From Tautonia marina (GTDB taxonomy: Bacteria; Planctomycetota; Planctomycetia; Isosphaerales; Isosphaeraceae), in NCBI RefSeq assembly GCF_009177065.1, contig NZ_WEZF01000019.1, positions 85,603-149,602 on the forward strand: a stretch of 64,000 nucleotides of DNA. Direction: 5' to 3'. How positions within the stretch are numbered: the stretch's first letter is position 1; each line of letters starts with the position of its first letter. Below the pieces are notes generated by a model that saw only the letters and a list, made by a program, of their open reading frames with translations, did no database searches and was not told the DNA's origin. Both the position numbers and the translations under genes were made by a program. Of the stretch, positions 17,225 to 38,409 are shown piece by piece.

Positions 17225-20200
17225 TCACTCGATCCGCCGGCTGTAGACAATGACGTCTCGATAGTCGCCCGGTCGAAGCGGATTGAATCCGGTCGCCCGG
17301 GTGCGATCGAGCACAAAGAACGAGCGATACCGCACATTCGAGCCCGAGGCCACGCCCAGCTCCGGCCCCAGCTCGTCGGGGATCAACTGGGCGCGATCGC
17401 CCGTTTTGACGACCTCGAACAGGCCGACCGTGACCCAGACGGCGTACTGGTGCGTTCTCGGGGTCGTCAGGTTGGACACTTTCTGCAACAGCTCGGTCCG
17501 GGTGGACGGATTGCGTCGCATGTCTCGGTTGACGCGACCCGCGGCGTTGCCGGTGGGCTCGTCGACGGTGAAGGTCTGAACGCTTCCGGTGACCGGCTCG
17601 AACTGGGTGAAGGTGGTGCCCACAACCGAGCCGCCGAGGTAGGCCGAGGCGCCGCTGAACCGGCTCCGCATCTCGGACCCGTCAGCCGGGCTGGTCCAGA
17701 GCGGGAACAGGCCAGGGTAGTCGCCGATGATCGGAGCCACGGACGACAGGGCTGTGCCGGCATTGGTGATGGGCGTGTAGGTCATCACGGGATCGCCGAC
17801 ATTGAGAGGAGTCAATGGCCCAAGAACCGCGGCGTTTGAGGTCGTCAGGGGATCGACGACGGCATCGGACCAGTCGGGGATCTGGAACCATCGGCGCGGC
17901 GGGATCGGCGGGACGATCGGCTTGCGATCGGTGCCGATGGGCCGGTACGGGTTGGCGTAGAGCAGGCTGATGTCGCCTGGGGCGGTGATCGCAGCCGGGG
18001 GCTCGTAGACGATGCCGGGATCGAGGAGCAAGGCCTCGGTCACGTCGTACTGCGAGTCCTTCAGGCCGGGGTTCTGGACGTTCGGATCACCTGGAGCGAC
18101 CGCGACTTGCAGTGGGGGCGCGGTGAAGGTGGACGGCTCCATCGTGGCCGGCCGCATCAGAGTACGCTGAATGTCGTAGTGCGAGAGGGAGCGATAGGGC
18201 AGGTCGCGGGCCACCTTTGAGCCAAGCGGGGCCGCCCCGGCCCCCTGGGTGCCGGTGTCGCCGTCGCCATAGGCGAAGAGGAACCCGGAGCCGCCGTGCC
18301 GCTGCTTGAGGAAGTCGGCGAAGGAGCGCTTCATCGCCATCAGGGGGAAGCTGGCGGAGGTGGGAGCGCTGTCCAGCTCGGTGCCGGCCTGGTCAGTCGA
18401 GAAGACGGTAAAGCCGCGGTTCTCCATCGAGTAGGAGGCAACCGGGCGGCCGTCGAGATCGACGGCGGTGACGATCTGGGGTGGGAGATCGGCTGGAACA
18501 CCACCCGATGCGGGAAGGAGGCTACGCAGCCGGAGGTGGGTCGTGTCGAGCAGCCTCGGATCGTCGATCAGGCCGAAGAAGACCTCTTCATCGAGGATGA
18601 GGTTGAGGTTGATCTGGCCGGGTCGGCGATCCTGGCGGAACCAGTCGAAGTTCAGGCCCTGGGCGACGGGGCCGATGGCGTCGAGGACCGGAGAGGGGAC
18701 CTCGAACAGTTCGAGCATCTTGTACCAGCCGGCGCTGGTCGAGCCGCCGACGAGGTGCAAGGTCGCGCCGCCGCCGAAGGCGTTGGTCGGGTCGACGATC
18801 GTACTCGGGTTCGACGAGTAGAAGAACTCGTGCGCCAGGTACGGATAGGTACGGACCTGAGCGTGATTGATCGCTGGCGAGGCGCCGGGGATGGTCGAGG
18901 GGTAGGCCAGGTCGGTCGGCACCCAGTCGAATCGGCCTCCGTTGCGAGGAGGAGGTACGGGGGAGAAGGCCCCGAGCTGATCGACCGTGCCATTGTCATC
19001 GGTGTCGGCGGCAACGGGGACCTCCAGGAGGTCGGGCGGCCGCTCGGCGAATTGCTTGGTGAACAGACCGGGAGGACAGGCGGGGACGAGCAACAACTCG
19101 GCCACGCTCATGAAGTCGCGGTCGTTGAAGGGGAAGTAGTCGTACGACTCGTCGACACCGCCGGAGGCTCCGGCGTTGGCGTTGCGATCGCCGAGGGTCT
19201 GGAAAATGCGGCCGGAGGTGTCGACCTCCTGATTATTCGGGGTGTCGAAGTAGGTCCGGTAGTTGTTCGAGCCGCCGGTGTTCGAGTCGGCGGGCCGAGC
19301 CTGCTCGGAGCTGCCGTAGAGGAACAAGGGGAGTGACGGGTTTTCGGGGTCGGGCACAAGCTGACCGCCGCGGAAGGGCTGAGGACGCTGGATCGAGTAA
19401 ATTGGGTGATCCGCGGGGGTGACTTCCTCGTCCTCGTTGCTGGCGGTGTTGACCTGGCCTTCCCCTTCAGAGGCGCCGAAGGGGAAGCGGATCGAGTCGA
19501 CGACGACCATGGGGTTGGTGCTCGGATCGGGAGGGAGCAGGGGGTTGGCCGGTCGTCGGAGGTAGAGCCAGAAGTAGCGGCCCTGGGGGTTGTGGGTGGT
19601 GAAGGCCTCGTCGTTGACCGAGGGGATGAGATCCCAGGCGTCGTTGCCGAGGTCGCGGTCGATGTCGGGCCGGTTGCGCTCGAAGTCGGGCGTGGTCGGC
19701 AGGGCCGGGCCGTCGGTCCGGGTGCCGGCGATGACCCAGCGTTCCTGTCGGCCGTCGGGTTCCATGGCGGGGATGTCATCGGCCGCGGGCAGGGCGGAGT
19801 TGATGTAGGAATCCTGGTAGGTTGTCAGGTCGGTTCGGTCGGGGACGGTGCCGGTGCCGACGAGAACGGCCTGAGACTGGCCGGGGGCGACGGTCACGCC
19901 GTCGCCATCGGGAGCGACCGGCCGCTTGTCGGGGTCAGGAAGCGCGGCGTCCGGAATCTGACCCGTGATCGGGTCGGGCCGAACGAAGACCGGGTGGTGG
20001 TACGGGTTGCCGGCCGAGTAGTTCGGGTCGTGATCTTCCTTGACGAGGACGAAGTCCCAGCCCTGCAGATCGAGGTCGGTGGCGTTGGGCGCGGGGTCAC
20101 CGGCCTCGGTCAGCATGTTGACCATCTCGATATAGAGACGGTTGGCTCGGGAGTTCTGGAAGGTGCTGCCCGACGCCTCGGCGAAGCTGAACTGGAAGCC

Positions 20201-23200
20201 GAGGACCTCGTTCAGGGCGACCGGCTGGTATTCCATGCCGTAGTGGGTGAGCGGCCGGGCCAGAGCGTCGCTGAACCAGGGGTCGGGGGTACCGTCGGCC
20301 CGATAGGGGAGGTGGATCGAGGGGGGCAGGTCGTAGTCGGCATCGTCGTCGAGGTTGCCGTTCCCGTCACCGTCAGCGCGGCGGGCGGGCAGGTGGACGA
20401 TGTCGGGGTTCTGCCAGATGGTGATGGCGTTGTCCGGGTCCCGGAAGTCGACGATGTTGACAACAAACTGGCCGAGCTTGGCGAGTTCGTGCGGGGTGTC
20501 GATCGCGTGCGGCGGCAGGATGACCTTGAGCGTTTCGTACGTCTCGGTGATCCACTTCTGCCGAACGGGCTCGACGGGGTTGTACGAGTGGGGCAACGGG
20601 TGGTTGAGGTTGATCCGTCGGCCACCGTGGGTCAGGCTGGGGTTGGCCTGGTTGAGGTTCTCGAAGCTGGCGGAGACGAGCGGACCGAACCGCGTGTTGC
20701 TGATCGGAGGAACCTCGGAGGGATCGCCCGGAGACAGGGTGGCCGGATTGACGGGGACCAGGCGATCAATCGGATTGTCGTTGGCAAAGGAGTAGTCGAT
20801 GCGGTCCCAGCTGTCGACGCTGAACAAGCGGCGGCGGGTCTGGGCATCGACGGCGTGGACGAAGCTGATGGGGGCGAGATCCTTGAGGCGGCTATCGAGC
20901 GAGAGGCCGTCGACGTCACCGAAGCGATAGAGCCATTCGAGATCGTTTGGCCCGAACGGCGCGTCGGTCGAGTCGGGCCAGTAGAGGTTCATCTCGTTCG
21001 GGTCGTTGAGCAACGGATTGCCGAGCGGGTAGGTATGCACGGCGGTCGTGGTATCGGTGACGAACTGAGCCCCCATGTAGAGAGGGAGGGGGGCACTGGT
21101 GACCGGGTCTGTGAGGAGTTCGTTGCGAAGGCGGCCCAGGGGATTGGCGTTGATCGTCGGACTGAAGGTGCCGACATACGCGCCCGAGCCGGCGCTGTCG
21201 AAGAGGTCGGTGGGAGGCACGGCCTGACCGGTCGCCGGGTCTCGGGGAAAGAAACCGGCTCCGGCGTTGCTGAGGTCGAAGGGCATCGCGCCCATCATGA
21301 AGCCGTTGTTGCCGCCAGGGAACAGATGGGAATGGAAGCCGTGGTAACGGTTGTGCTGGTTGTCGGCGAGGATGTACGGCGGAGCGCCGGTGTTGGGGAT
21401 CAGGCGAACGCCGTCGTCGGTGTCGAGCGGGACGCCGGGGGGCCGGAAGTAGTGCATGAAGCTGATCCGGCCTCGGCCGTCGGGTCCGATGTCGGCCGGA
21501 ATCAAGGGATCGCCCGGCAGCGGGATGCCCGGCACCTGGTTGTAGCGGGTGACGCGGCCGACGCCGGTGGGATCGATCGGGGTGACGAAGCGTCGGATGC
21601 GCTCGGAGGCGAGGATCGGCAGATTGGCCGCGTCGTGAGCGTCGGAGAAGCCCCCGACCGGGGCGGCCTCGGGGCCTTGATTGGCGGCGCGGGCGGGGAA
21701 GAAGTCGTAGGTGTCGAGATTGGTGTCGATCCCGTCGGTCAGGTACTGGCCGTTCGGGAAGGGAGACTGGCCGGGCCGGACCGGGTTGGGGATGTCGAGG
21801 TTGACGCCGCTGGGCAGGAGGACCCGGCTGCTGCTGAAGTTCAGGGCGCGATCGAGGGCGGGGGAGATCAGATCGCCCGCGGGGTTCGGGAATAGACGCA
21901 TCTCGGGGGGGATGGCGTCGGGTTCTCCCCAGCGGCCGGGGATGGCCTCGTTGGTGAAGCGATCGACCGATTGACCACCATTGCGGGCGACCCAGAAGTC
22001 GGCGCCATCGACCGTGTTGTTGTGGAACCGGATGAGGTCGCCGTCGACCAGCACATTGTTTTGCTCGCCGCTGTCGTTGTTCTGGTTGATCCGGGTGCCG
22101 GTCAAGAGGCTGCGAAGCTGGGAGAGGGCGACGGGAATGTGACCGAGGCCGGTGCCGGGGTCGGTCGCGTTGTCGAACTGCTGATGCTGGGGCTTGGCGT
22201 CGTCGGGGATGTTGTTGCCGGCGCCGTCAGGGGTGGGGTCGAAGGCGTTTTGGAGTGCGTACTGGGGGTTGATCTCACTGGGGCTGTAGCCGAGGTGCGA
22301 AGCGTGGTCGTAGAGGGGCAGGCCGGCCTCGTCGAAGTTGAGGGTGGCGGGGTTATCGACGAGCAGGCGAGCGTTGAGGTTGCCGGCGGTGTTCAGGGGC
22401 AATCGGCCGTTGGTGCCGACGGCCATGAAGGAGAAGAGGGGTTTGTACAGAGTGCCGTCGTTGGAGCGCTGGACGGGATAGCCGAGGTCGAGCCAGACCG
22501 AGTCGCCGACGCCGTCGCCGTCGTTATCGACCGGGTAGGTGATGAAGCCGTTGGCGTCGGGCAGGAGGTCGGAGAAGCCGGCGGTCGGGTGGTCGATGGG
22601 CCGGGGGGTGAGGATCTTGGAGATGGCCCGGACGGCGCGGCGGTAATCGGGAGTGCCGGGAGCGAAGTTACTCGGGTGGGGGAACTCCATGTCGCTCACG
22701 CCGAGGGGATCGACCGCAAGGATGCCGGGCCGGTGGAACGACGGGATGATGGTGCTGCCGTCGGCGCTCTGGGCGGCGAGGAACCAGTTTTCCAGGTCTG
22801 GTGCGTCGTAATCTTCATCCATGGGGAGAAGATTGACGTTGAAGGGACGAGGGGTGTAGGCCAGATCGCCTTCGAGGATGCCGCCGCTGACGCGGAAGTT
22901 GGCGAACTGGCCGGGGTTGCGGTTGCCGGGGTCGGGACCGGCAGTCATGGCCTGATCGACGTTGCCCGTGAGTGCGGCCATGCCGGTGCCGTTGAAGGCG
23001 TGGCGGTAGCGGCCGTCGAGTGAGAAAACGGCGTTGGTGACTGGGATCGACATGCCGATGACGCCGTTCACCCCGCTGGTGGTGGTGCCGGGTCGGTGAG
23101 AGCCGGTAATCTCCAGCACGTAGTTCGGGCCGGAGTTGACGCCATTGACCACCTGGAAGGTCTGCGCCACGGTGCCGCCGGTGCCGGGAATGGTGAGAAT

Positions 23201-23632
23201 CCAGCCGGAGAAGTTGTAGCCGACGAAGCTGGGGATGTTCGTGGTGATGGTCCAGCGGGCCGGCTCACCGGCGAGCACGGGGACCACGGTGACGGTGCCG
23301 ACGGTCGGGAACGAGCCGTTGGGGTTGCGGTCGTAGAAGCCGTTTTCGACCGCGTCGTTGCCATACTGGTCGCGCTTGAGGCCGTGCCCGTAGAGGGCGG
23401 ACATGGGGTTGGTGGTGTCGTTGATGAACTGGCGGATGCCGAAGCCGACGAGGTCGTCGGCCAGGGGGCGGTTGAGCTTCTTGGTGTAGGCGCGGGCGGC
23501 GCTGCGGGCCTGTCCGCTGAAGGCGGCAAACGACACGCCGATGACCGCAAGCAGCCCCAGCATCGACAGGACCAGGATCAGGACCACACCTCGGCGTCGG
23601 GAGGCGGGGGATCGGGGTCGTCGGGCGATCAT
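17225..23632 (-). CDS. Giant GspK-like minor pseudopilin
   Basis: The product has 2,135 residues, about six times a normal GspK. The N-terminus SRRRGVVLILVLSMLGLLAVIGVSFAAFSG has a basic leader, Gly15 at the cleavage site and a hydrophobic helix without Glu at +5, exactly the GspK/PilX pattern. The remainder is a secreted Pro/Asp/Asn/Gly-rich protein with many beta-type segments; acidic loops such as DNDGDGVGD (about 369-377) and GDGNGNLDDDADYD (about 1083-1100) may bind Ca2+. The sequence reads through without a stop and with uniform codon use. AAGGA precedes the ATG at 23632. It is the last pseudopilin gene of the cluster, the position gspK holds in classical operons. It might cap the pseudopilus or be the secreted/exposed part of it (inference). 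Confidence 0.8.
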   Translation of the reverse strand: MIARRPRSPASRRRGVVLILVLSMLGLLAVIGVSFAAFSGQARSAARAYTKKLNRPLADDLVGFGIRQFINDTTNPMSALYGHGLKRDQYGNDAVENGFYDRNPNGSFPTVGTVTVVPVLAGEPARWTITTNIPSFVGYNFSGWILTIPGTGGTVAQTFQVVNGVNSGPNYVLEITGSHRPGTTTSGVNGVIGMSIPVTNAVFSLDGRYRHAFNGTGMAALTGNVDQAMTAGPDPGNRNPGQFANFRVSGGILEGDLAYTPRPFNVNLLPMDEDYDAPDLENWFLAAQSADGSTIIPSFHRPGILAVDPLGVSDMEFPHPSNFAPGTPDYRRAVRAISKILTPRPIDHPTAGFSDLLPDANGFITYPVDNDGDGVGDSVWLDLGYPVQRSNDGTLYKPLFSFMAVGTNGRLPLNTAGNLNARLLVDNPATLNFDEAGLPLYDHASHLGYSPSEINPQYALQNAFDPTPDGAGNNIPDDAKPQHQQFDNATDPGTGLGHIPVALSQLRSLLTGTRINQNNDSGEQNNVLVDGDLIRFHNNTVDGADFWVARNGGQSVDRFTNEAIPGRWGEPDAIPPEMRLFPNPAGDLISPALDRALNFSSSRVLLPSGVNLDIPNPVRPGQSPFPNGQYLTDGIDTNLDTYDFFPARAANQGPEAAPVGGFSDAHDAANLPILASERIRRFVTPIDPTGVGRVTRYNQVPGIPLPGDPLIPADIGPDGRGRISFMHYFRPPGVPLDTDDGVRLIPNTGAPPYILADNQHNRYHGFHSHLFPGGNNGFMMGAMPFDLSNAGAGFFPRDPATGQAVPPTDLFDSAGSGAYVGTFSPTINANPLGRLRNELLTDPVTSAPLPLYMGAQFVTDTTTAVHTYPLGNPLLNDPNEMNLYWPDSTDAPFGPNDLEWLYRFGDVDGLSLDSRLKDLAPISFVHAVDAQTRRRLFSVDSWDRIDYSFANDNPIDRLVPVNPATLSPGDPSEVPPISNTRFGPLVSASFENLNQANPSLTHGGRRINLNHPLPHSYNPVEPVRQKWITETYETLKVILPPHAIDTPHELAKLGQFVVNIVDFRDPDNAITIWQNPDIVHLPARRADGDGNGNLDDDADYDLPPSIHLPYRADGTPDPWFSDALARPLTHYGMEYQPVALNEVLGFQFSFAEASGSTFQNSRANRLYIEMVNMLTEAGDPAPNATDLDLQGWDFVLVKEDHDPNYSAGNPYHHPVFVRPDPITGQIPDAALPDPDKRPVAPDGDGVTVAPGQSQAVLVGTGTVPDRTDLTTYQDSYINSALPAADDIPAMEPDGRQERWVIAGTRTDGPALPTTPDFERNRPDIDRDLGNDAWDLIPSVNDEAFTTHNPQGRYFWLYLRRPANPLLPPDPSTNPMVVVDSIRFPFGASEGEGQVNTASNEDEEVTPADHPIYSIQRPQPFRGGQLVPDPENPSLPLFLYGSSEQARPADSNTGGSNNYRTYFDTPNNQEVDTSGRIFQTLGDRNANAGASGGVDESYDYFPFNDRDFMSVAELLLVPACPPGLFTKQFAERPPDLLEVPVAADTDDNGTVDQLGAFSPVPPPRNGGRFDWVPTDLAYPSTIPGASPAINHAQVRTYPYLAHEFFYSSNPSTIVDPTNAFGGGATLHLVGGSTSAGWYKMLELFEVPSPVLDAIGPVAQGLNFDWFRQDRRPGQINLNLILDEEVFFGLIDDPRLLDTTHLRLRSLLPASGGVPADLPPQIVTAVDLDGRPVASYSMENRGFTVFSTDQAGTELDSAPTSASFPLMAMKRSFADFLKQRHGGSGFLFAYGDGDTGTQGAGAAPLGSKVARDLPYRSLSHYDIQRTLMRPATMEPSTFTAPPLQVAVAPGDPNVQNPGLKDSQYDVTEALLLDPGIVYEPPAAITAPGDISLLYANPYRPIGTDRKPIVPPIPPRRWFQIPDWSDAVVDPLTTSNAAVLGPLTPLNVGDPVMTYTPITNAGTALSSVAPIIGDYPGLFPLWTSPADGSEMRSRFSGASAYLGGSVVGTTFTQFEPVTGSVQTFTVDEPTGNAAGRVNRDMRRNPSTRTELLQKVSNLTTPRTHQYAVWVTVGLFEVVKTGDRAQLIPDELGPELGVASGSNVRYRSFFVLDRTRATGFNPLRPGDYRDVIVYSRRIE

Positions 23633-23800: not shown

Positions 23801-25678
23801 TCAGAGTTTGTCGGTGAAGTCGTGGCGAATGGTGATGACCTTGAGCACCTGGTTGTCGGGAGAGGCCAGGCGGACCTGGATCTGGATGCCTCGCAAGGGT
23901 TCGGGATACGGCGGCGGATACGACGGATAGACCGGCCGGGAGGCGCTGAGCGGCGGATAGAGCGAGGGGTCGATTCCCTTGAAGGGAGCGAAGGCGTAGT
24001 CGGTGGACCAGGTATCCCAGACGCGGCGGAGCCGAACGGTGTTGGGGTTGTTGTCGCCGATCGGGAACAGAAGGCCGAACTTCTGCTCCATGTGGTAATC
24101 GACCCGGTTATCGGTCGGCAGCGGAGGAATGCGCCCTTCGTGGCCGAGCGTGGTGGTTTCGCCGGGCAGGGTGTCTCCCTCGCCGGCTCCGAAGGTGAGC
24201 TTCAAGGGAAGGCCGTAGCCGAGGTCGTAGTAGTCGGTCGTCATGTTCACGCCGACGAGGGCGGTGTAGGCCGGGGCGTTCGGGTCGAGCACCTTGATGT
24301 CGAAGCTGCGGACGTTGGTGGCGAGCAGGTCGTCTTGCCAGGCGGAGGCGGGGGGAACGAGGTTTGGGCCTCCTGCGCCAGCCGCGGCGTCGCTGTACCA
24401 GTGGCCTTGCGGGGGAAGCAGATCGTTGTTGCCACCCCGGACCCAGGACAGCCCGACGGCCTGCTGGCCTGCGGGAATTTGGAAATCATCGAAGGCAAGG
24501 CGCTTGTTGGCGGCGGTCCAGCGGGGGTTGCGGGTTTCAGCCCAGGTGGGGAAGCCCCAGAAGGTCCAATTCTCGGCGAGACTGGTGGGGACGGGCAGGT
24601 TGTCGCCATCGGCCGGGTCGAGGGGGGAGTGATTGGTGGTGGTCGGCGAGAAGGGGGGAGCAGACGGGATTGCCAGAGTCGGGCCAATGTTGATCGAGCC
24701 AACGGCGGCGGGGCTGCTCTTGGAATAGGCGCTGGGGAAAAGGAAGGGAAAGGCGAGGGTGTCGAGCGAGTCGGTACCGAGGGCCGGGCGATTGGGCCGA
24801 AGCGGGGCGTTGCCTGGAGTGAGCGTGGGAGAGAAGTCGGGGACCCCGTCGGGAGATGGGCCGGGAAGCCCGACGAAATCGTCGTCGGCGCCGTTTTGAT
24901 CAAAGTCGCTCGTGAAGCGCGGCCGGGCGAAGCGGTTGTGGCGGTTGGTCAGGTCGCCGAGGGTGTTGGCGATCGGCGGGGCGTTGTTTGCCGGGGTCAG
25001 GGCGTTGGAGGGGCGAGCCGAAATGTCGTTGACACCTTGCCAGCTCACTTCCGGAGCATTGGCGCCGGTGAGGCTGAAGCCGTCGGACCCGACTCCGGCG
25101 AAGCGGAACCCGGTGGGGTTGGCGACAGGGACAAGGTCGGCATAGAGCGTCTGATTGGGCGCGACCAGCAAGACGCGGCGGTAGAGATTGCCGTGGCGGA
25201 GGAAGTAGATGACCTCGGCGGTATCGCTGGTGATGGTGGCCGGGAGGTAACGGGGCTGGCCGGCGAGCGGGCCGGCGGGCCAGACACCCCGAGGAAGCAT
25301 GACGCGGCCGGTGAAGGGCTGGCCGGGGGGGGCCTTGGTGGTGAAGGCGAGGTAGTCGTCGGTGTCTTCACCCTGGGGGTCGGAGAAGGAGTTCTCGCCG
25401 TACTCGAAGTAGCCGAGGTTGTCGGCCGGGTTGAGCGGAGGGGTGAAGCGGGCGGTGGCGCCGCGGAGGTCCTGTTGAATGACCGTTTCGAGGCGGCGGG
25501 CCTCGGAGGCAAGCTCCTGGTCCTTCTTCATGCCCGTCATGGCGTCGGTGGCGGAGGTGAAGACGCCGACGATCACGGACATGATCAAGAGCATCAGGGC
25601 GATGGTCACCAGCAGCTCGACGAGCGTCAGGCCCCGGCGGTGCAGGGCTGCGGTCGGCCGCGTTGTCGGACATCGCAT
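23801..25678 (-). CDS. GspJ/PilW-like pseudopilin, enlarged
   Basis: The product has 625 residues. Its N-terminus ALHRRGLTLVELLVTIALML is a prepilin signal (Gly16, Glu at +5). It is followed by the GspJ-type segment SEARRLETVIQQDLRGATAR, comparable to the RLxxALxxLExDLR helix of GspJ/PilW. The rest is a long exported region with an acidic loop (DFDQNGADDDF, about 257-268). It ends with a beta-rich part including RGIQIQVRLASPDNQVLKVI, which resembles the end of PilW/GspJ proteins. Canonical GspJ is about 200 residues. GAGGAA precedes the start. The upstream gap of 149 bases and downstream gap of 168 bases hold no other gene. Confidence 0.8.
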   Translation of the reverse strand: MRCPTTRPTAALHRRGLTLVELLVTIALMLLIMSVIVGVFTSATDAMTGMKKDQELASEARRLETVIQQDLRGATARFTPPLNPADNLGYFEYGENSFSDPQGEDTDDYLAFTTKAPPGQPFTGRVMLPRGVWPAGPLAGQPRYLPATITSDTAEVIYFLRHGNLYRRVLLVAPNQTLYADLVPVANPTGFRFAGVGSDGFSLTGANAPEVSWQGVNDISARPSNALTPANNAPPIANTLGDLTNRHNRFARPRFTSDFDQNGADDDFVGLPGPSPDGVPDFSPTLTPGNAPLRPNRPALGTDSLDTLAFPFLFPSAYSKSSPAAVGSINIGPTLAIPSAPPFSPTTTNHSPLDPADGDNLPVPTSLAENWTFWGFPTWAETRNPRWTAANKRLAFDDFQIPAGQQAVGLSWVRGGNNDLLPPQGHWYSDAAAGAGGPNLVPPASAWQDDLLATNVRSFDIKVLDPNAPAYTALVGVNMTTDYYDLGYGLPLKLTFGAGEGDTLPGETTTLGHEGRIPPLPTDNRVDYHMEQKFGLLFPIGDNNPNTVRLRRVWDTWSTDYAFAPFKGIDPSLYPPLSASRPVYPSYPPPYPEPLRGIQIQVRLASPDNQVLKVITIRHDFTDKL

Positions 25679-27264: not shown

Positions 27265-27275
27265 CAACACCTCGG

Positions 27276-28751: not shown

Positions 28752-30451
28752 CAGCGTCCTCCCGTGCCCAGGGTGTTCGGTGAATGGTTGGTGAGGTCAT
28801 CGACGCCCCAGCGGTCTCGCAGGGGGACCGTGAACGGGCTGGCGTCGGCCGGCAACTGATAGAGGGCCATCTTCTGAGTCAGATTAGCGGCGTTGGAGAG
28901 GTCGGCGGGACCGGCCTGGCCGGGAATGCGTTGGTAGGGGTCGGATCGGGACGCCTGGTTTTCAATCAGGGTCATCCGGGCGGCAGTGGTCGCCGCATCG
29001 CCAGCGGGCAGGGAGGCGGGGTCCTGGACCGATCCGGAATAGGTCACCCCAAAACTGCCGACGCCAAGCTGACGGTCGGGACCGGCAGAGAGAATCAGGT
29101 GCTTGAAGAAGTACGAACGACGCTTGTAGAAGTGCGTGCGATCCCAGAGGAACCCGCGTGAGGGGAACGGCTGCGACACGGAACCGGCGGGCAGGTCGGC
29201 ATACGGATCAAGCAGGCTGAAGAATTGCTGCTGAAAGACATTCGCTCGTGCGCTCATCTGAGCAGCATTATCGGGGTAGCCGGTCGTCGGATCGGCCCAC
29301 CAGCCGGGAGAGACGAGCAACTGGTTCGGGTCGAGGGGGTTTTCTTCTCGGATTTCTCGAAGATCGCCCGCCGTGTAGGGGGCTTCACCTTTCTGAAGGC
29401 CGCGAGTCGTCGCACCGTACTCGGAAACGAAGTAGACCGGCCAGCGGTAGAACTGAAGCGGCTGACCCCAGGCATCGACGAACTCGGGAAGGCCGTCGCC
29501 GTCGGTGTCCTGGACTTCCTGGGGAGTGAAGTCATCGGCGCTGAAAACGCTGCCGAGCGGCCCGACCCCGCTGACGAGGATGGCGTAGAGCATCTCCGAT
29601 CGCGCGGTGAGATGGCGATGATTGCCGAGCCTGGTCGTCAGATCGGTTTGCAAGGCCGAGAAACTGGCCGCGCGGTCGGGATCGCCGGGACGGTACAGTT
29701 CGTCGATCGTAAATTCGTCGATCAAACCATTGCCGTCGTCGTCGATGCCGTTGTAGCCGCGGGGCGGGTAGCCGAGCTGCCGCGTCAGGCTGCCGATGGC
29801 CGAATAGGAGGCGCCGAAGATCCCCTGGCCGGCCGGAGGGCTCGTAAAGCGGACCTGCGACGGGTCGAGGCCGCTCATGTCTCCGAGCCGCGTGAGGCCC
29901 GCTCCGAAAAGCTTGGTATCGCCATCCCAGACCTGATCGATCTGCAAGGCGTGGCCGAGTGGCAGCACATAGGGGGCGTAGGCGGCCGGAATCTGGGGGA
30001 AGGCGGAGCCGGCCCCGGGACCAGGAGCCATCGACGACGGCTTGAAGGGGACGCCGGTGAAGTTCAACGGGTAAAGCTGATCCGGCTGCACGAAGAAGAC
30101 GTCGGGCAGCTCGCGCTTGAGGTAGTCGATCTGAGCGATGAGCCGGGCACGGGCCTCGGAATCGACGTAGCGGACGGTTCCGCTCACCGGATCGGGGGCG
30201 ATGGACATGGCCATGAAGCGGTGGCCGTTGTTCGGCTCGGGCCGCTGGCCGGTGAGGGCCTCGATCCGGTCGGAAACGGCGAGGTCGAGCTTCTGGATGA
30301 GGGACTGAGTGGCCCGTTCGTTGGCCCGTTTCAGCCCTTCGAACGAGGCGACCAGGAGGAAGGACATCATGATGCCGATGATCAGGATCACGACGCCCAG
30401 CTCGACCAGGGTGAAGCCGGCGCGGCGTCGTGGCGAGGATCGGGATCGCAT
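28751..30451 (-). CDS. Additional large pseudopilin with acidic loops
   Basis: The product has 566 residues from the ATG at 30451, which has GGGGAGG 5-6 bases upstream. The prepilin segment is RRRAGFTLVELGVVILIIGI with Gly12 and Glu at +5. Acidic loops lie at about 236-246 (IDDDGNGLIDE) and 315-326 (DTDGDGLPEFVD); the latter is followed by AWGQPLQFY, a motif often seen after the helix of GspG-like proteins. Another segment, HLILSAGPDRQLGVG, parallels QIISAGRDRLFGTGG in the neighbour. It has no clear counterpart in the classical G-H-I-J-K set and may be a second GspG-type pseudopilin. The 88-base upstream gap suggests that it is in the same operon. Confidence 0.75.
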   Translation of the reverse strand: MRSRSSPRRRAGFTLVELGVVILIIGIMMSFLLVASFEGLKRANERATQSLIQKLDLAVSDRIEALTGQRPEPNNGHRFMAMSIAPDPVSGTVRYVDSEARARLIAQIDYLKRELPDVFFVQPDQLYPLNFTGVPFKPSSMAPGPGAGSAFPQIPAAYAPYVLPLGHALQIDQVWDGDTKLFGAGLTRLGDMSGLDPSQVRFTSPPAGQGIFGASYSAIGSLTRQLGYPPRGYNGIDDDGNGLIDEFTIDELYRPGDPDRAASFSALQTDLTTRLGNHRHLTARSEMLYAILVSGVGPLGSVFSADDFTPQEVQDTDGDGLPEFVDAWGQPLQFYRWPVYFVSEYGATTRGLQKGEAPYTAGDLREIREENPLDPNQLLVSPGWWADPTTGYPDNAAQMSARANVFQQQFFSLLDPYADLPAGSVSQPFPSRGFLWDRTHFYKRRSYFFKHLILSAGPDRQLGVGSFGVTYSGSVQDPASLPAGDAATTAARMTLIENQASRSDPYQRIPGQAGPADLSNAANLTQKMALYQLPADASPFTVPLRDRWGVDDLTNHSPNTLGTGGR

Positions 30452-30539: not shown

Positions 30540-31697
30540 TCAGTCAAGCGTGCCGTTGGAAATGTTGGTGACGTTGTCACGCTCGCGAGTGCGCCCGTCG
30601 CCAGGGAGGCGATCGCCGGTCCCGCTGCTGGAGTACTGGCCGCCGGTGCCAAACAGGCGGTCGCGGCCAGCGGAGATGATCTGATACGACTGCGGCTGGT
30701 GGAACGTGGCCGGCTTGTCGCCGGTGGCCACCGGAAGGCTACTGGTGTAAGGGTTCGGCAAGGGGGAGCCCGTGACCCGAGCACTCACTCCATTCAAGAC
30801 CGGGAACGAGACCGAGAAGGGGAGGGCGACCGGGTTCGGCTCGGAGATGGCGCCGGCGTTGAAATTGACGTCGTTCGGGTCGTAGCCCTGCCCGCCGTAG
30901 GAGCTGAAATAGGCGAAGTAACGCCCGGCCGGTCCCTCGCCGAGCGGGTCGATGTAGCCGGGAATGCCGTCGAAGTCGTCGTCCACCAGGCGCTCGGCGC
31001 GGAACTCGAAGAACGGCTCGGAGCGGTTCTGGCCGACCGGGTCGAGGGTGCCGTCGGGCAGGTACGCGGGCCGGAACGGGTTTCGAGGATTGCCGCCAAA
31101 GCCCCCGACCCCTTCCAGGGTGTAGGTGCTACCGACGATCGTGTGGGTGGGGATGCCGCCGAGGAAGAAGGCCAGGCACTCGTGCCCTTCGAGGTAGATT
31201 GGGTTCGCGTCGAGCACGCCGTTGCCGTTGAAGTCGTAATACCCACCGACAATGCCCGAGGCGGCCGGACCGGTCGAGAACTGCGTTTTCGAGAAGAACT
31301 TCCGCATGACGGAGATCGATTTCTGAGCCAACGCGGCGTAGGTCTGGTCACCCACGCCCGTCACCACCTGCGGATTGCCGCCGATGTTGGCCGCCGGGCT
31401 CTGGTAGCTCATGCCGGCGTAGAAGGGGACGCTGTCGAGCGCGACGGCGGCAGAGTCGTAACCACCGTCCTCGGCCAGAATGATCCGGCTCGGCGGATAG
31501 TCGCCGAACTTGTTCTGGAAGCTGGCCAGGGCCTGGGCGAGGGTGTTGATCTCTCCCCCGACGCGGGCATCGTTGGCGCGACCGACGGCGCTCCAGATGA
31601 CGGGGATCAGCAGGCCGATGAGGACCCCGATGATCGTGATCACGACCAGGAGCTCAACCAGGGTGAAGCCGGTCCGACGGCGTTCGGCGGGGGTCAT
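30540..31697 (-). CDS. GspG/PilE-like pseudopilin, enlarged
   Basis: The product has 385 residues from the ATG at 31697 (GGAGG 8 bases upstream). Its N-terminus RRRTGFTLVELLVVITIIGV followed by LIGLLIPVIWSAVGRANDAR is a clean class III prepilin of the GspG/PilE type, with Gly10 and Glu at +5. It continues as EINTLAQALASFQNKFGDYP, the GspG helix that precedes the conserved Pro. Loops at 155-163 (DFNGNGVLD) and 239-250 (DDDFDGIPGYID) resemble Ca2+ sites; GspG pseudopilins are known to bind calcium. It is the first pseudopilin gene after gspF, the classical gspG position. Its length is about 2.5 times that of GspG. Confidence 0.85.
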   Translation of the reverse strand: MTPAERRRTGFTLVELLVVITIIGVLIGLLIPVIWSAVGRANDARVGGEINTLAQALASFQNKFGDYPPSRIILAEDGGYDSAAVALDSVPFYAGMSYQSPAANIGGNPQVVTGVGDQTYAALAQKSISVMRKFFSKTQFSTGPAASGIVGGYYDFNGNGVLDANPIYLEGHECLAFFLGGIPTHTIVGSTYTLEGVGGFGGNPRNPFRPAYLPDGTLDPVGQNRSEPFFEFRAERLVDDDFDGIPGYIDPLGEGPAGRYFAYFSSYGGQGYDPNDVNFNAGAISEPNPVALPFSVSFPVLNGVSARVTGSPLPNPYTSSLPVATGDKPATFHQPQSYQIISAGRDRLFGTGGQYSSSGTGDRLPGDGRTRERDNVTNISNGTLD

Positions 31698-31984: not shown

Positions 31985-33241
31985 TCAGCCCGAGAGTTCG
32001 CTAATCAGCTTGACCAGCGGCATGAACAGGGCGATGACGATGAAGCCGATGATGCCGCCGAGGACGACGATCATGATCGGTTCGAGCAGGCTGACGAGCG
32101 ACTCGACGGCCGCCTCGACTTCTTCATCGTAGTTGTCGGCGATTTTCATGAGCATGGTATCAAGCTCACCGGTTTCCTCGCCGACGTCGATCATGTTGAC
32201 GACGATGTCGTCGACGATCCGAGCCTCGCGGAGGGGCTGGGCGATGGTTTCACCCTCTCGGATCGAGTCGTAGATGCGGGTGAACGCCCGTTCGAAGACC
32301 GCGTTGCCGGCGGTGTCTCGGACGATGTTCAGCGATTCGAGAATCGGCACGCCCGACTGCACGAGGGTGCCGAGGGTCCGGGTGGTTCGGGCGACCACCG
32401 ATTTTTCGAGGATCGTGCCCATCACCGGAATCAAAAGTTGCACACGGTCGCCGATGTAGGCGCCGGTTTTACTCCGGTAGAGGAGCTTGACGAAGACCCA
32501 CCAGATGGCTGGGATCAACGGAGCGAGATACCAGTAATTGACGACCACGTGGCTGCCGTTGATCAGGGCCACGGTCATCTGGGGCAGGTCGACGCCGAAG
32601 TCGATGAAGATGGCTTCGAACTTCGGCACGATCCAGTACATGATGAAGCCGACGATGAGGATGGCCACGAAGATGACCACCACCGGGTAGACCATGGCCG
32701 ACTTGATCCGGCGCTTGAGCGACTGGCTCTTCTCCATGAAGTCGGCCAGGCGCTGGAGGATCGCTTCGAGGGCACCGCCGGCCTCACCGGCCTTGACCAT
32801 GTTGCAGTAGAGGCGGTCGAAGCACTTGTGGTGCTTGGACATGGCCTCGGAGAGGGTCGAGCCACTCTCGATGTCTTCGATGACGTCGGCAAGGGAGTTT
32901 TTCAGGACGCCGGGCTTGGCCTGTCCTTCGAGGATTTTGAGGCTGCGAAGGATCGGCAGGCCGGCGTCCTGCAGGGTGGAGAGCTGTCGGGTGAAGGTCG
33001 TTAGTTGCTTGGATGAGACCTTGCCGATGGTGAACGACTTCTTCTTGCGACGGCCGGCCGGTCGCTTGGCGGCGGAGGTGCCACCCTTCTTGGCTTTCTT
33101 GGCGGCGCGCTCGCTGATCTTGGTGACGAAGTAGCCTTTCTGGCGGATCAGCTGTTGGGCTTCTTCCTGGGTGGAGGCGTCGATGGAGTCCTTGACTTCC
33201 TTGCCGGTGTGATCCATCGCCTCGTACTGAAAGGTCGGCAT
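31985..33241 (-). CDS. GspF/PilC inner-membrane platform protein
   Basis: The protein has 418 residues, the normal length of the family. It has an N-terminal cytoplasmic region (MPTFQYEAMDHTGKEVKDSI, then a Lys/Ala-rich linker AAKKAKKGGTSAAKRPAGRR) and two repeats of the GspF domain, with transmembrane segments VVVIFVAILIVGFIMYWIVP, YLAPLIPAIWWVFVKLL and IMIVVLGGIIGFIVIALFMP. The typical FTRQLSTLQDAGLPILRSLK is present. It is the inner-membrane anchor that couples the ATPase to pseudopilus assembly. It follows the second GspE gene by 97 bases and precedes the GspG-like gene by 287 bases. The Lys-rich insert after residue 45 is not usual. Confidence 0.95.
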   Translation of the reverse strand: MPTFQYEAMDHTGKEVKDSIDASTQEEAQQLIRQKGYFVTKISERAAKKAKKGGTSAAKRPAGRRKKKSFTIGKVSSKQLTTFTRQLSTLQDAGLPILRSLKILEGQAKPGVLKNSLADVIEDIESGSTLSEAMSKHHKCFDRLYCNMVKAGEAGGALEAILQRLADFMEKSQSLKRRIKSAMVYPVVVIFVAILIVGFIMYWIVPKFEAIFIDFGVDLPQMTVALINGSHVVVNYWYLAPLIPAIWWVFVKLLYRSKTGAYIGDRVQLLIPVMGTILEKSVVARTTRTLGTLVQSGVPILESLNIVRDTAGNAVFERAFTRIYDSIREGETIAQPLREARIVDDIVVNMIDVGEETGELDTMLMKIADNYDEEVEAAVESLVSLLEPIMIVVLGGIIGFIVIALFMPLVKLISELSG

Positions 33242-33338: not shown

Positions 33339-35057
33339 TCAGTCTTCAGTGATCGTGGCTTTGAGCACTTCCTCGACGGTGGTCAGGCCGTCGTTGATGG
33401 CTTCGAGGCCCGACTCGCGCAGGGTCTGCATACCGTACTTGCGGCAAGCCTCGCGGAATTCGTCGAGCGAGGTTTCGCGGACGACCAGCTCGCGAAGAGA
33501 ATCGTTCATGATCACCAGTTCATAAAGGCCCATGCGTCCCTTGTAACCGGTGTTGTTGCAGCGGTCGCAGCCGCGGCCGTAGAAGAATTTCTGGGCGGCT
33601 CCTTCCTCGGGAGAGAGGCCCAGTTCGAAGAGGATTTCCTCGCTCGGGCGGAACTCGGTGCGGCAGTTCGGGCAGATTTTGCGGACGAGCCGCTGGGCGA
33701 GCACCCCTTCGACCGTGGCGGTGATGAGGAAGGGGGGGATGCCCATGTCGCGCAGGCGGGTGACGGCCGAGGGGGCGTCGTTGGTGTGCAGGGTGGTGAA
33801 GACGATGTGGCCGGTCAGCGAGGCCTGAATGGAGATCTCGGCAGTTTCGAGGTCTCGGGTTTCTCCGACCAGGATCTTATCGGGGTCTTGCCGGAGGATG
33901 GCTCGCAGGCAGGCGGCGAAGGTCACGCCGATCTCGGCGTTGATGGGGCACTGGATGAGGCCGTCGATGTCGTACTCGACCGGTTCCTCGGTGGTGATGA
34001 TCTTATCTTCAACCGTGTTCAGTTCGTTGAGCGTGGCGTAAAGGGTGGTCGTCTTGCCGGAGGAGGTCGGCCCGGTGACGAGGATAATGCCGTTGGGCTT
34101 GTGGACCAGCTCGCGCCATCGGCGGAGGGTCTCCTGAGACATGCCGATCTTTTCGAGGTCGAGCTGCACGACCGTGCGGTCGAGAATCCGGAGGACGACC
34201 GATTCGCCGAACATCGTCGGCAGGGTCGAGACGCGGATGTCGACCGAGTTGCCGCCGATGTTCAGCTCGATCCGGCCGTCCTGCGGCAAGCGGCGTTCGG
34301 CGATATCAAGGTTGGACATGACCTTGATGCGGCTGGCGATGGCGGGCGCGAGGTGGCGAGGGGGTGGGACCAGTTCGTAAAGGACGCCGTCGACGCGATA
34401 CCGCATCTTGTATTCATCTTCGAACGGCTCGAAGTGAATGTCGGAGGCCTTGTCCTTGATCGAGAGCAGGAGCACCATGTTCAGGAGCTTGCGCACGGGG
34501 GCGGCGTCGGCCATTTCCTCGATGGCTTCGAGGTCGATGGTGCTCTCGCTGCGGTTCTGGAACCGGGAGAGATCCTTGTCGGACTCGATCTGCCGGATGA
34601 CGTCGTTGAGCGACTCCTTATCGGAGCCGGCGTAGAGTTCCTCGATCTTGGCCATGACCTCGGATTCCGAGGCGATGACGCCGCGAACCTCGACACCGAG
34701 GAAGGAGCGCAGGCTGTCGAGCGTGGCCGGGTTCTGGGGCTCGGCCATGGCGACGGTGACGGCCTTGTCCTTGCGGCCGATGGCCACGGGGACGACCTTG
34801 AAGGCTTCGGCCATCGACTGGTTGACCGTCTCGATCACCTCGGGCGGGACGGTCGTGTCGGAGAGCTTGATGACCTTCATGCCGAGCTGTTCGCCGAGGG
34901 CACGCAGCACGTGCTCCTCGCGCACCAGGCCGAGGCGAACGGCGACCTTGCCGATCAGCTCGCCGCCGGAGTTCTTCTGCTCCTCCAGGACTTTCCAGAG
35001 GGCCTCCTCGTCGAGGTAGCCCATGTCGACCAGGATCGTTCCGAGACGTCGAGCCAT
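33339..35057 (-). CDS. GspE/PilB-family assembly ATPase (copy 2)
   Basis: The protein has 572 residues, starting with MARRLGTILVDMGYLDEEAL, the N1E (MshEN) domain typical of PilB/GspE. The core ATPase shows the Walker A loop GPTSSGKTTTLY, DPDKILVGETRDLETAEISI (Asp box and Walker B region) and FTTLHTNDAPSAVTRLRDMG (His box). The tetracysteine zinc motif reads CPNCRTEF...CDRCNNTGYK. It powers assembly of pseudopilins into the fibre from the cytoplasmic side. It lies directly upstream of gspF, the arrangement found in T2SS and T4P operons. A second paralogue lies at 36694-38409; the two differ in length of the N-terminal part and in many positions. Confidence 0.95.
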   Translation of the reverse strand: MARRLGTILVDMGYLDEEALWKVLEEQKNSGGELIGKVAVRLGLVREEHVLRALGEQLGMKVIKLSDTTVPPEVIETVNQSMAEAFKVVPVAIGRKDKAVTVAMAEPQNPATLDSLRSFLGVEVRGVIASESEVMAKIEELYAGSDKESLNDVIRQIESDKDLSRFQNRSESTIDLEAIEEMADAAPVRKLLNMVLLLSIKDKASDIHFEPFEDEYKMRYRVDGVLYELVPPPRHLAPAIASRIKVMSNLDIAERRLPQDGRIELNIGGNSVDIRVSTLPTMFGESVVLRILDRTVVQLDLEKIGMSQETLRRWRELVHKPNGIILVTGPTSSGKTTTLYATLNELNTVEDKIITTEEPVEYDIDGLIQCPINAEIGVTFAACLRAILRQDPDKILVGETRDLETAEISIQASLTGHIVFTTLHTNDAPSAVTRLRDMGIPPFLITATVEGVLAQRLVRKICPNCRTEFRPSEEILFELGLSPEEGAAQKFFYGRGCDRCNNTGYKGRMGLYELVIMNDSLRELVVRETSLDEFREACRKYGMQTLRESGLEAINDGLTTVEEVLKATITED

Positions 35058-35206: not shown

Positions 35207-36337
35207 TTATCGCTTCTTGGCGCCGCCGTCCTCGTCGTCCTCCTCCTCATCCACGTCGTCGAAGATGCCCTTCTTGGCCAGTTCGATGCGTTCGCGCAGG
35301 TCGTTGGGCTTGCGGGCCTTGTAAATGATTTCGGTTTCCTCGACGAGGCCCTGGCGCCAGAGGTTGAACAGCGAGTCGTCCATCAGGATCATGCCGTGCT
35401 TGCGGCCGGTCTGGATGGAGGAGTCGATCCGGTAGGTCTTGTTTTCTCGGATCAGGTTGGCGATGGCCGAGGTCACGACCAGGCACTCGTAGGCGGCGAC
35501 CAGCCCTTTCGGCTTGCGTGGGAGGAGCGTCTGGGCGAGGATGCCGATGATCGCCACCGAGAGCTGGGTGCGGATCTGGTCCTGCTGCTCCTTGGGGAAG
35601 ACGTCGATGATGCGGTTGACCGTGCCTTCGGCCGAGTTGGTGTGCAGGGTGCCGAAGACGATGTGGCCGGTCTCGGCGGCGGTGATGGCCGCGGAGATGG
35701 TGGCCAGGTCACGCATTTCGCCGACGAGGATGATGTCCGGGTCCATCCGGAGGGCGCGACGAATGGCCTCGGGGAAGTCAGGGACGTCGATGCCGATCTC
35801 GCGTTGGTTGACGAGCGACTTGTTGTGCTGGTGGAAGTACTCGATCGGGTCTTCGATGGTGATGATGTGGCGATCGAGGTTGTTGTTGATCCAGTTGATC
35901 ATCGAGGCAAGGCTGGTGGTCTTGCCCGAGCCGGTCGGCCCGGTGACGAGGATCAGACCGCGGGGGCGTTGAATCAATTCCTCGATGACCCAGGGCAGCC
36001 CGAGCTGCTCGAAGGTCAAGAACTCGTTCGGAATCCGCCGCAGCACCAGCCCGATATTGCCGCGTTGCTTGAAGATGGCGACGCGGAAGCGGGCCATCTC
36101 GCCGAAGGCGAAGCCGAAGTCGGTGCCGCCGACTTCCTGCAACTCCTGCTGGCAGCGTTCCGGGGTGATGCTCTTCATCAAGGCCACCGTGTCAGGCGGC
36201 TCGAGCACCTTGGTGGCCAGGGGACGCATATGACCATGCAGCCGGAGCATCGGGGGGCTGCCGACGGTCAGGTGCAGGTCGCTGGCTTTCTGGGTACAGA
36301 CGGTCTGGAGCAGCTTGTCGATCAGCAGCGTGCCCAT
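35207..36337 (-). CDS. pilT: PilT-family retraction ATPase
   Basis: The protein has 376 residues, typical of PilT. It starts MGTLLIDKLLQTVCTQKASD, lacks the N-terminal MshEN domain and the zinc motif of GspE/PilB, and shows the SDLHLTVGSPPMLRLHG segment, Walker A GPTGSGKTTSLASM, IILVGEMRDLATISAAITAA and GTLHTNSAEGTVNRIIDVF. In PilT these form the hexameric retraction motor. The C-terminus carries a cluster of acidic residues (DDVDEEEDDEDGG). A retraction motor is not a part of standard type II secretion systems, so its place between the two GspE genes suggests a dynamic, T4P-like fibre. The ATG at 36337 fits the family start. Confidence 0.95.
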   Translation of the reverse strand: MGTLLIDKLLQTVCTQKASDLHLTVGSPPMLRLHGHMRPLATKVLEPPDTVALMKSITPERCQQELQEVGGTDFGFAFGEMARFRVAIFKQRGNIGLVLRRIPNEFLTFEQLGLPWVIEELIQRPRGLILVTGPTGSGKTTSLASMINWINNNLDRHIITIEDPIEYFHQHNKSLVNQREIGIDVPDFPEAIRRALRMDPDIILVGEMRDLATISAAITAAETGHIVFGTLHTNSAEGTVNRIIDVFPKEQQDQIRTQLSVAIIGILAQTLLPRKPKGLVAAYECLVVTSAIANLIRENKTYRIDSSIQTGRKHGMILMDDSLFNLWRQGLVEETEIIYKARKPNDLRERIELAKKGIFDDVDEEEDDEDGGAKKR

Positions 36338-36693
36338 GGACTCCGGTTCCTCACGTCGATCGAGATCGAAAAGGGATGGGGGTAGCCCCGAGGCTCGAAT
36401 CCACCGGGGCTTGACTTTGTCTCGCAACCCAACTGTCAGACGGAAGACCGACCGTGAATCAAGAGTTGCGACGAGAGGACCCGGGAACCCGGTTCGCTCT
36501 CATTATTCGGAACGATCACGGAACGGATCAAGCAACCGCAGGCGATTGCCACGAACGGGCGTCGGGTTGGCGAGCCTTTGCAGTCGGCTCGCTCAGCCCG
36601 ATCGCGTCGAAAGGTCGAAGCTGGGCGAGCGCCGTTTCGCCCCGAGGGTGGGCCGAGCCGCCCGGGCGGCCTCGACCCGGATCGCGCCACGAC
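36338..36693. other. Intergenic region between GspE copy 1 and pilT
   Basis: This 356-base gap separates two genes in the same direction and may hold a promoter for the pilT-gspE-gspF group. I recognise no standard promoter, hairpin or gene in it. Confidence 0.4.
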
Positions 36694-38409
36694 TCAGGAG
36701 GAACTCGAGGCTTCGTGATGCGTGATGCGAAGCACCTCGTCGATGGTGGTGACCCCCTTGAGAGCCTTGATCATCCCGTCCTCGAAGAGGGTGCGCATCC
36801 CCTGTTTGCGAGCCAGTTTACGGATGGCCTGCGTGTTTTCGCCCTTGAAGGTCATCTCCCGGATCTGGCTGGACATATTCATCAGCTCGTAGATCGCCAG
36901 GCGGCCGCGATAGCCGGTCTTGTTGCAGTACGAGCAGCCTTTGCCACGCATGAAGTTCGCCTTCGAGGCGATCTCGGGACGGATGCCAAGGCTCTTGAGC
37001 AGGTGGGCCGGCGGCTCGTATCGGGCCCGGCATTTCGGGCAGACCTTGCGCACGAGACGCTGGGCCATGATGCCGATAATCGAGCTGGCGACCAGGAACG
37101 GCTGAACACCGATATCGACCAGACGTGTCAAGGCACTGGGCGCATCGTTCGTGTGCAGTGTACTGAAAACCAAGTGTCCTGTCAGTGAGGCCTGGATGGC
37201 GGTGTTCGCCGTCTCCTCGTCCCGAATCTCGCCCACGAGGAGGATATTCGGGTTCTGCCGGAGCATGGCCCGAATGATCCGGGCGAAGGTCATTCCGATG
37301 CGGGCCTTGACCTCGCACTGGTTGATGCCGGGCAGGTAGTACTCGACCGGGTCCTCGGCGGTGATGATCTTCGTGTCCGGACGGTTCAGCTCGTTCAAGG
37401 AGGCGTAGAGCGTCGTCGTCTTGCCCGAGCCGGTCGGCCCGGTGACGAGGAGAATGCCGTTGGGCCGCTTGATGAGGTTCTGGTAGCGCTTGAAGTCCTC
37501 CTCACCGAAGCCGAGGTCGCGGAGGCTGACCTTGATGTTGTCGCGGTCGAGGATCCGCATAACCATCGACTGCCCGTGGTTGGTGGGCAAAACGCTGACC
37601 CGCAGGTCGATGTCCTTGCCGGTGACGTGGACCTTGATCCGGCCGTCCTGGGGGCGTCGTTTCTCGGCGATGTCGATCGAGCCCATGATCTTCAGGCGGC
37701 TCATGATCGGTCCGAGCAGACGGCGGGGAGGGCTCTCGATTTCCTGGCAGACGCCATCGATCCGGTACCGGATGCGGATGCGGTCGGCAAAGGGTTCGAT
37801 GTGGATGTCCGAGGCCCGCATCAGGACCGCTTTTTCGAGAATCAGATTCACCAGGCGGATGACCGGAGCGCTATCGTCCTCCTCGGCCCCACCGACCCCC
37901 TTGCCCGCGTTGATGTCGTCGGCGTAGTCGATGGCGGTGTCGGTGAACTCCTGAAGCATCGAGTCGACCGACTCGGACTCGGTCGTGGCGCCTCCGTAGT
38001 AGCGGTTGATGGCCTCGACGATCGCCTCGCGGGGGGCCAGGGCGATGCTGATTTCTCGGTTCAGGACGAAACGGAGCTTGTCGAGCGTCTCGAAGTCCAT
38101 TGGGTCATGCATGATGACCTTGATGGCGCCCCCTTCCTGAGCCAGGGGCATGACGACGTTTTCCCGGGCGAGGGATTCGGGAACGAGTTCGACGACCTGG
38201 GCCGGAATCTCGATCTCTTGCAGGTCGACATAGTCCAGGCCGTTCTGTTCGGCCTTGGCCTTGGTGATGTCTTCGATCTCGGCGTAGCCGAGCCGCACGA
38301 GCGACTCCTCAAGGGCGTCGCCCATACCTCGGGCTTCCTGGATCTGGTCGGCTCCGACGATCCCGCGTTTGACGAGGATGTCGGTCCAGTCCTTGGTTTG
38401 CTTGGCCAT
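36694..38409 (-). CDS. GspE/PilB-family assembly ATPase (copy 1)
   Basis: The protein has 571 residues and starts MAKQTKDWTDILVKRGIVGA, with an MshEN-type N-terminal domain (about 1-145). The ATPase core contains GPTGSGKTTTLYASLNELN (Walker A), NPNILLVGEIRDEETANTAI and FSTLHTNDAPSALTRLVDIG, and the zinc motif CPKCRARY...CSYCNKTGYR. It belongs to the same family as the copy at 33339-35057 and is likewise expected to drive pilin polymerisation. It is separated from pilT by 356 bases and follows the ppdK gene by 397 bases with a hairpin in between, so it is probably the first gene of the pilus-like cluster. Two assembly ATPases may serve two fibres or act on different substrates. Confidence 0.93.
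   Translation of the reverse strand: MAKQTKDWTDILVKRGIVGADQIQEARGMGDALEESLVRLGYAEIEDITKAKAEQNGLDYVDLQEIEIPAQVVELVPESLARENVVMPLAQEGGAIKVIMHDPMDFETLDKLRFVLNREISIALAPREAIVEAINRYYGGATTESESVDSMLQEFTDTAIDYADDINAGKGVGGAEEDDSAPVIRLVNLILEKAVLMRASDIHIEPFADRIRIRYRIDGVCQEIESPPRRLLGPIMSRLKIMGSIDIAEKRRPQDGRIKVHVTGKDIDLRVSVLPTNHGQSMVMRILDRDNIKVSLRDLGFGEEDFKRYQNLIKRPNGILLVTGPTGSGKTTTLYASLNELNRPDTKIITAEDPVEYYLPGINQCEVKARIGMTFARIIRAMLRQNPNILLVGEIRDEETANTAIQASLTGHLVFSTLHTNDAPSALTRLVDIGVQPFLVASSIIGIMAQRLVRKVCPKCRARYEPPAHLLKSLGIRPEIASKANFMRGKGCSYCNKTGYRGRLAIYELMNMSSQIREMTFKGENTQAIRKLARKQGMRTLFEDGMIKALKGVTTIDEVLRITHHEASSSS

Follow-up and report, generated by a model that had tools for sequence, protein, structure and literature searches.

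What does a gene cluster build that keeps the gene order of a type II secretion system (T2SS), yet carries a PilT gene and pseudopilins of giant size? This question is raised by a stretch of 64,000 nucleotides, hereafter the window, which forms the end part of contig NZ_WEZF01000019.1 (C19) in the genome of the planctomycete Tautonia marina (7.07 Mb, 80 contigs, 97.8% complete). On its minus strand twelve genes run from a PPDK gene to a DUF1559 gene in the order PPDK-E1-PilT-E2-F-G1-G2-H-I-J-K-DUF1559, and the two GspE/PilB ATPases, PilT, GspF and six prepilin-type proteins that the first-pass annotation had placed on one strand are all present there as open reading frames. Our analysis moderately favours the reading that this cluster builds a retractable type IV pilus of GspG-type subunits, capped by an enlarged H-I-J-K complex of ~400 kDa whose proposed role is to bind extracellular polysaccharides or surfaces. 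The retraction is read from PilT, the T2SS-like shaft from the GspG-type subunits, and the working head from the enlarged minor pilins.

The motor genes come ahead of the pilins. E1 (36694..38409, where 38409 is the likely start in an open frame up to 38871) is a GspE/PilB-type assembly ATPase with an MshEN domain (T2SSE 5.6e-136, MshEN 1.8e-23); the PilT/PilU-type retraction ATPase of 406 aa (35207..36427) reaches 444.2 bits with TIGR01420 against a cut-off of 319.1; E2 (33339..35057) is a second GspE/PilB-type ATPase (T2SSE 4.2e-135) with an MshE-type N-terminal motif that binds cyclic di-GMP (c-di-GMP; NF053729, 45.6 bits, cut-off 38); and F (31985..33241) is the GspF/PilC inner-membrane platform protein of 418 aa (T2SSF 3.1e-69; GspF model 389.7 bits, cut-off 424). 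The two large ATPases score nearly equally with the GspE and PilB models (620.1 and 610.2 bits for E1, 612.5 and 611.1 for the other), all below the curated cut-offs. As the order E-F-G-H-I-J-K is that of E. coli gspE-K, a variant T2SS has to be considered, in which the pseudopilus would remain periplasmic, its enlarged H-I-J-K tip acting as a piston head that grips substrates and drives large enzymes out through a secretin; we regard this as possible but rather doubtful. PilT speaks against it, being absent from the E. coli gsp cluster and not known from T2SS in general.

The pilins are marked first of all by their size. With the likely starts, G1 (30540..31697, open frame up to 31793), G2 (28751..30451, open frame up to 30784), H (27276..28751), I (25828..27264, open frame up to 27279), J (23801..25678) and K (17225..23632, open frame up to 23755) have 385, 566, 491, 478, 625 and 2,135 aa, which is 2.7 to 6.5 times the length of GspG, GspH, GspI, GspJ and GspK of E. 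coli K-12 (145, 169, 125, 195 and 327 aa) and bears out the earlier estimate of 2 to 6 times the canonical size. Their mature masses are 39.5, 60.3, 51.1, 50.4, 65.8 and 229.3 kDa, and H, I, J and K sum to 396.6 kDa, whereas their uncleaved counterparts in E. coli K-12 sum to 92.3 kDa, so that the predicted tip set has four times the mass. Apart from K, the pilins all match the Pfam prepilin N-terminal motif (E<=2.7e-4), with J and I slightly below its cut-off. K has a prepilin-like leader and helix, and it alone among the six has no Glu5 but a Leu at that position, just as had been remarked of the protein in GspK place.

All six pilins are acidic (isoelectric points 4.6 to 5.1), unlike a typical DNA-binding surface, which bears on a further alternative, namely a pilus for DNA uptake (competence) whose receptor tip is enlarged. 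Its model would be ComZ of Thermus, described in passages of PMC6561018 as a GspK-like tip pilin whose large inserted domain binds DNA and is argued to fit only at the tip. Family scans recognised no competence genes in the cluster, and we hold this alternative to be quite unlikely.

The class of each pilin was examined by hhalign with ten-sequence profiles, built from the window and nine Isosphaeraceae loci, against single E. coli sequences. Here G1 aligned best to GspG (probability 97.3, 60 columns), G2 likewise to GspG (95.8), H to GspH (93.4 over 105 columns, with GspG at 90.2 as the runner-up) and J to GspJ (71.2), while for I the top was GspG at 37.1 and GspI had 7.8. The family models gave GspG at 2.3e-13 for G1, GspH at 3e-6 for H and PilV at 3.2e-4 for I, and these, as all pilin class matches, lie under the NCBIfam equivalog cut-offs; I is thus weakly assigned to the GspI class by its position, its helix and the sub-cut-off PilV match. 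Moreover, GspG/GspH models give G1, G2 and H higher scores than PilA-type models do, a point in favour of a T2SS. The window proteins G1 and G2 carry the motifs SAGRD and SAGPD, respectively. SAGx[D/N] is read here as a putative GspG-like C-terminal signature. In protein sets cut at score thresholds of our own choice, its counts are as follows: G1, 12 of 31; G2, 20 of 29; H, 0 of 33; I, 2 of 28; J, 4 of 38; and long K, 11 of 41. The background among other open frames of at least 250 aa is 18 of 706. The extra pilin member that had been noticed before can thereby be identified as G2, second in order and of GspG type by hhalign and its SAGPD motif. As for the proposed succession of G-H-I-J-K classes, G, H and J stand by profile and J also by fold, whereas I stays weak and K relies on bridging sequences rather than on its fold.

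An alignment of 62 J sequences matched GspJ with a probability of 72.4 over 124 columns, with the LRN..LYR segment in common, and the predicted J model gave structural alignments only to T2SS pseudopilin chains. In this model a GspJ-like core is made of residues 16-171 and 451-625, flanking an insert of ~280 residues, so that J, as predicted, is a pilin fold with a grafted domain, i.e. a modular pilin. For window K there is no Pfam or NCBIfam match up to E=1, nor any family match for its counterpart L131 in family f13 of another class; the closest homologues come from Tautonia (85% and 81% identity). The K consensus has a series of landmarks that are located in window K as well: the N-terminal helix, DEDYDAPD..N.FLA, DVDNDxDGxxDSxWxDLG followed by DLDGRxNLN, AQxAVNxVDxxDxD, PGKxNLNT and a C-terminal RSxxxAVWxTVGxFEV; in our interpretation the NLN, DxxDxD and NLNT blocks may be parts of GspK. 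The modelled fold of residues 1-1,182 is poor (pLDDT 58.1, pTM 0.43), and the fold search was uninformative on GspK.

Shorter relatives provide a bridge. With the GspK model, the K-position protein L135 (862 aa) and the K-like proteins L136, L137, L139 and L140 give E-values from 3.7e-8 to 1.1e-4, all far under its 130-bit cut-off, with the best stretch being the helix and a second stretch found in four of the five. For PF03934, L139 gave 8.8e-5 and L140 0.0023, and four of 24 K proteins matched at E<=0.5 (best 1e-5). A Planctomycetia K profile of 18 rows, L135 being left out, met L135 in five collinear blocks, of which one reaches 23.6 bits and the other four lie between 0.7 and 3.9; reversed sequences gave negative scores and the shuffled copies all stayed under 15 bits, so the control covers the 23.6-bit block and not the four weak ones. 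To judge from its place, the missing Glu5, the landmarks and these shorter relatives with sub-threshold GspK matches, K would descend from GspK. As a side observation, L139 (176-3367), a protein of 1,063 aa from another planctomycete lineage, has a lectin-type Laminin_G_3 domain at residues 850-936. GspK-like proteins of 1,135 to 1,639 aa are also present in L134, L136, L137, L138, L142 and L143, where neither a motor nor a J gene was recognised in the stretch read.

Is this arrangement more than an accident of one genome? The order E1-PilT-E2-F-G1-G2-H-I-J-K-DUF1559 was found in all eight further Isosphaeraceae genomes read, and the partial contigs L020, L021 and L022 agree with it; the DUF1559 (SBP_bac_10) gene, which in the window codes for a pilin-like protein directly after K (15849..17159, PF07596 1.3e-38), follows K in nine of nine Isosphaeraceae loci. 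Outside the family, the E1-to-K order is seen in twelve genomes (G002, G004, G006, G008, G030, G042, G046, G049, G061, G062, G065, G070), in some of which K or E1 is cut by the end of the stretch, J of G062 reaching 20 bits only. There are also departures: G005, G011 and G016 have E1 to I and K without J, which lies elsewhere in G011 and G016; K stands ahead of J in G023, G047, G071 and L023, with I not recognised in G023; G021 has G1 to K and no motor gene recognised in the preceding 8.5 kb; and G035, G043, G063, G067 and G079 show J without other cluster genes in the stretch read around J. In another class, family f13 (G099, G130, G188) has PilT-E2-F-G1-H-I-J-K without G2 and with K of 1,572 to 1,601 aa, where J and K are called at 20 to 40 bits and I by place. 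The run in G256 comprises E-E-F, three pilins (185 to 234 aa) and an 862-aa K, and it lacks PilT.

At the level of genomes, K turns up at E<=1e-10 in 90 of 98 genomes of the class Planctomycetia (all except G010, G044, G045, G048, G050, G066, G074 and G084) by a profile that draws 16 of its 18 rows from genomes of this same sample, and the open frames span 1,369 to 2,909 aa in 86 of the 90. J reaches at least 630 bits in 22 of the 25 genomes of Isosphaeraceae, and the remaining three, G044, G048 and G084, are also without K. Across the phylum K matches at E<=1e-6 in 43 of 294 genomes, namely 20 of the 21 class genomes among those listed, a listing that leaves out 231 genomes without a match, and 23 of other classes, with 20 of these 23 matches confined to the helix region; one genome, G162, has six K matches. 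Conservation of the order in relatives, on whose failure the first-pass annotation would have been given up, was thus examined, and since the same order and sizes recur in planctomycete relatives, the pattern is more than chance.

Such a conserved set of pilins could nevertheless be a passenger. The Verru_Chthon cassette A to D (TIGR02600, 02598, 02599, 02596), which occurs in the same superphylum, consists of a giant protein and three prepilin-like ones, which may correspond to K, I, J and H. H-I-J-K might be its planctomycete branch, an envelope structure that only travels together with pilus motors. H matches cassette D at 0.00043, I matches B at 0.088 and J matches C at 0.016, four of the bridging K-like proteins match A at 7.2e-7 to 0.0019, and UniRef so names two listed K homologues, P0037 and P0287. 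However, these matches are confined to the N-terminal helix and lie far under the curated cut-offs, window K has no TIGR02600 match at E<=1, and the whole genome gave none at 0.001, a search in which the controls gave no match either. Moreover, the motors adjoin the pilins in 25 class loci read, i.e. nine of Isosphaeraceae, the twelve genomes named above and G005, G011, G016 and G023, with G021 as the sole exception. We consider this passenger explanation very improbable.

Parts missing from the cluster were sought elsewhere, and both secretins and a prepilin peptidase, which the first-pass annotation had proposed to look for, were found. No secretin lies inside the cluster; three full ones (on C29, C28 and C9) are encoded besides one weak match, all on other contigs. 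An A24 prepilin peptidase on C22 reaches the Pfam cut-off without an NCBIfam family, and a second one on C20 stands beside genes read as Tad. The single PilM of the genome, on C9 (TIGR01175 150.3 bits, cut-off 133), is related to the Akkermansia Amuc_1101 family (5.9e-61, below cut-off), and the 621-aa gene after it has no family match; the PilM-like protein at L095:10264-12735, related to this family, has 823 aa. A search of the genome for PilN (PF05137) found none. The C9 secretin has TPR repeats and stays below cut-off with the GspD, PilQ and Amuc_1098 (4.8e-18) models, the first two scoring above the third. PilM (PF11104) is present in 98 of 98 class genomes, in single copy in 25 of 25 Isosphaeraceae, and lies within 15 kb of a TPR-type secretin in 9 of 11 Isosphaeraceae checked (not G007 and G036), as it does for two of 13 others, in one case with the genes on opposite strands; secretins at E<=0.001 are found in all 98 class genomes and above cut-off in 97. 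We infer that the C22 peptidase, the C9 PilM-like protein and the C9 TPR-secretin serve this cluster.

With these parts at hand the T2SS can be weighed against the pilus. The T2SS pseudopilus GspG-H-I-J-K (E. coli gsp, Xcp, Eps) is like the cluster in its gene order, its GspG, GspH and GspJ classes and a K without Glu5 in the last place, and a bulky tip is easier to keep in the periplasm than to pass through a pore, which favours a T2SS. The cluster differs from it by the enlarged proteins, the second GspG-type protein and PilT, and GspC, GspD, GspL and GspM were not recognised among the cluster and the scanned flanking genes (GspC, GspL and GspM being searched at this local range). In addition, a second compact E-F-pilin cluster on C28 (L006 and L025, G000:C28:44000-79500), with prepilin-like proteins of normal size (148 to 196 aa), a neighbouring secretin gene on the opposite strand and, in our reading, a possible GspC/PilP-like gene, is a better candidate for a secretion system in the same genome. 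Because PilT lies inside the cluster and no secretin is local, a retractable type IV pilus is preferred to a T2SS; of the earlier proposal of a variant secretion or fibre machine, the single machine with T2SS gene order and enlarged exported parts is retained, whereas secretion is less favoured.

How would such a retractable pilus work? In passages of PMC8179133 and PMC6561018 the GspI-J-K complex is proposed as the tip of the T2SS pseudopilus, and by analogy H-I-J-K may form a tip complex as GspH-I-J-K do. The prepilin peptidase would cleave the pilins, K-I-J-H would prime the filament, and E1 and E2, the latter probably controlled by c-di-GMP, would insert G1 and G2 at the base; the head would then emerge via the secretin and bind its target through the inserts as presumed binding parts, and PilT would retract the fibre and pull the head back. 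The function of the ~400 kDa head is probably adhesion or polysaccharide capture. That its target is a polysaccharide or a surface is suggested by the lectin-type domain of L139 together with published reports: sugar-binding planctomycete fibres have been compared to type IV pili (PMC8303584); for Fimbriiglobus ruber, pili on chitin are said to be shown in one paper (PMC11131199) and only suggested in another (PMC11279305); and in Singulisphaera Ch08 pilus genes including PilT rise on chitin (PMC11279305). The K homologue of Singulisphaera Ch08 is P0037. For the window genes, any link to the reported fibres would be an indirect one. Deletions of three pilQ-like genes have been published for the planctomycete Planctopirus limnophila (PMC11958385). 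It is a more daring and rather doubtful idea that the H-I-J-K head is the working end of the crateriform-pit fibres, i.e. that a phylum-old retractable pilus catches polysaccharides with a ~400 kDa head and reels them into the enlarged periplasm. For the genes behind the reportedly sugar-binding fibres, the cluster, kept in order across the class, gives a short candidate list.

Compared with other known systems, the type IVa pilus with its minor-pilin tip complex is alike in the PilB-type ATPases, PilT and the PilC-like platform, and the genome also encodes PilM, a prepilin peptidase and secretins outside the cluster, but here the pilins are GspG-type and several times larger, PilN is not recognised and the parts are scattered among separate loci. 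Modular pilins (PilB and PilC of Streptococcus sanguinis, ComZ of Thermus, CofB) are alike in that a new domain is grafted onto or into a pilin and a tip location is argued; in contrast, K has 2,135 aa, its relatives have open frames up to 2,909, and all minor pilins are enlarged together. The most extreme multi-domain pilin named in the available passages of a survey has 860 residues (PMC8179133). As to Amuc_1098 to 1102, a pilus-like system of Akkermansia, the C9 PilM-like protein and secretin match the Amuc_1101 and Amuc_1098 families, respectively, but both below cut-off, with the secretin favouring other models and the C9 tie to the cluster being one that we infer. In the titles and abstracts of open-licence literature, as far as listed and with subscription literature outside this scope, no description of giant pseudopilins in planctomycetes was found. 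The parts are of known kinds, while their concerted enlargement and class-wide fixation appear to be new. If the pilus reading is true, the cluster shows how far a filament tip can enlarge with the gene order kept, and the smaller versions in another lineage, with K of 862 aa, are possible intermediates.

Several other genes deserve a brief mention. The PPDK gene at 38807-41479 on the minus strand is the first of the twelve-gene run. At 12377-15496 the window codes for a BamA-type Omp85 protein that has five POTRA stretches and, ahead of the barrel, a long segment rich in proline; its gene adjoins the cluster in four loci, and downstream of it lies an IS200-like (Y1) transposase gene at 11613-12281. 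Elsewhere in the genome, a single GspE-like gene on C26 precedes a run of three GspF-like genes (L028:6130-11050), and a second PilT/PilU-type gene adjoins a PilB-like ATPase with an unusual N-terminus on C12 (L026:9275-12281).

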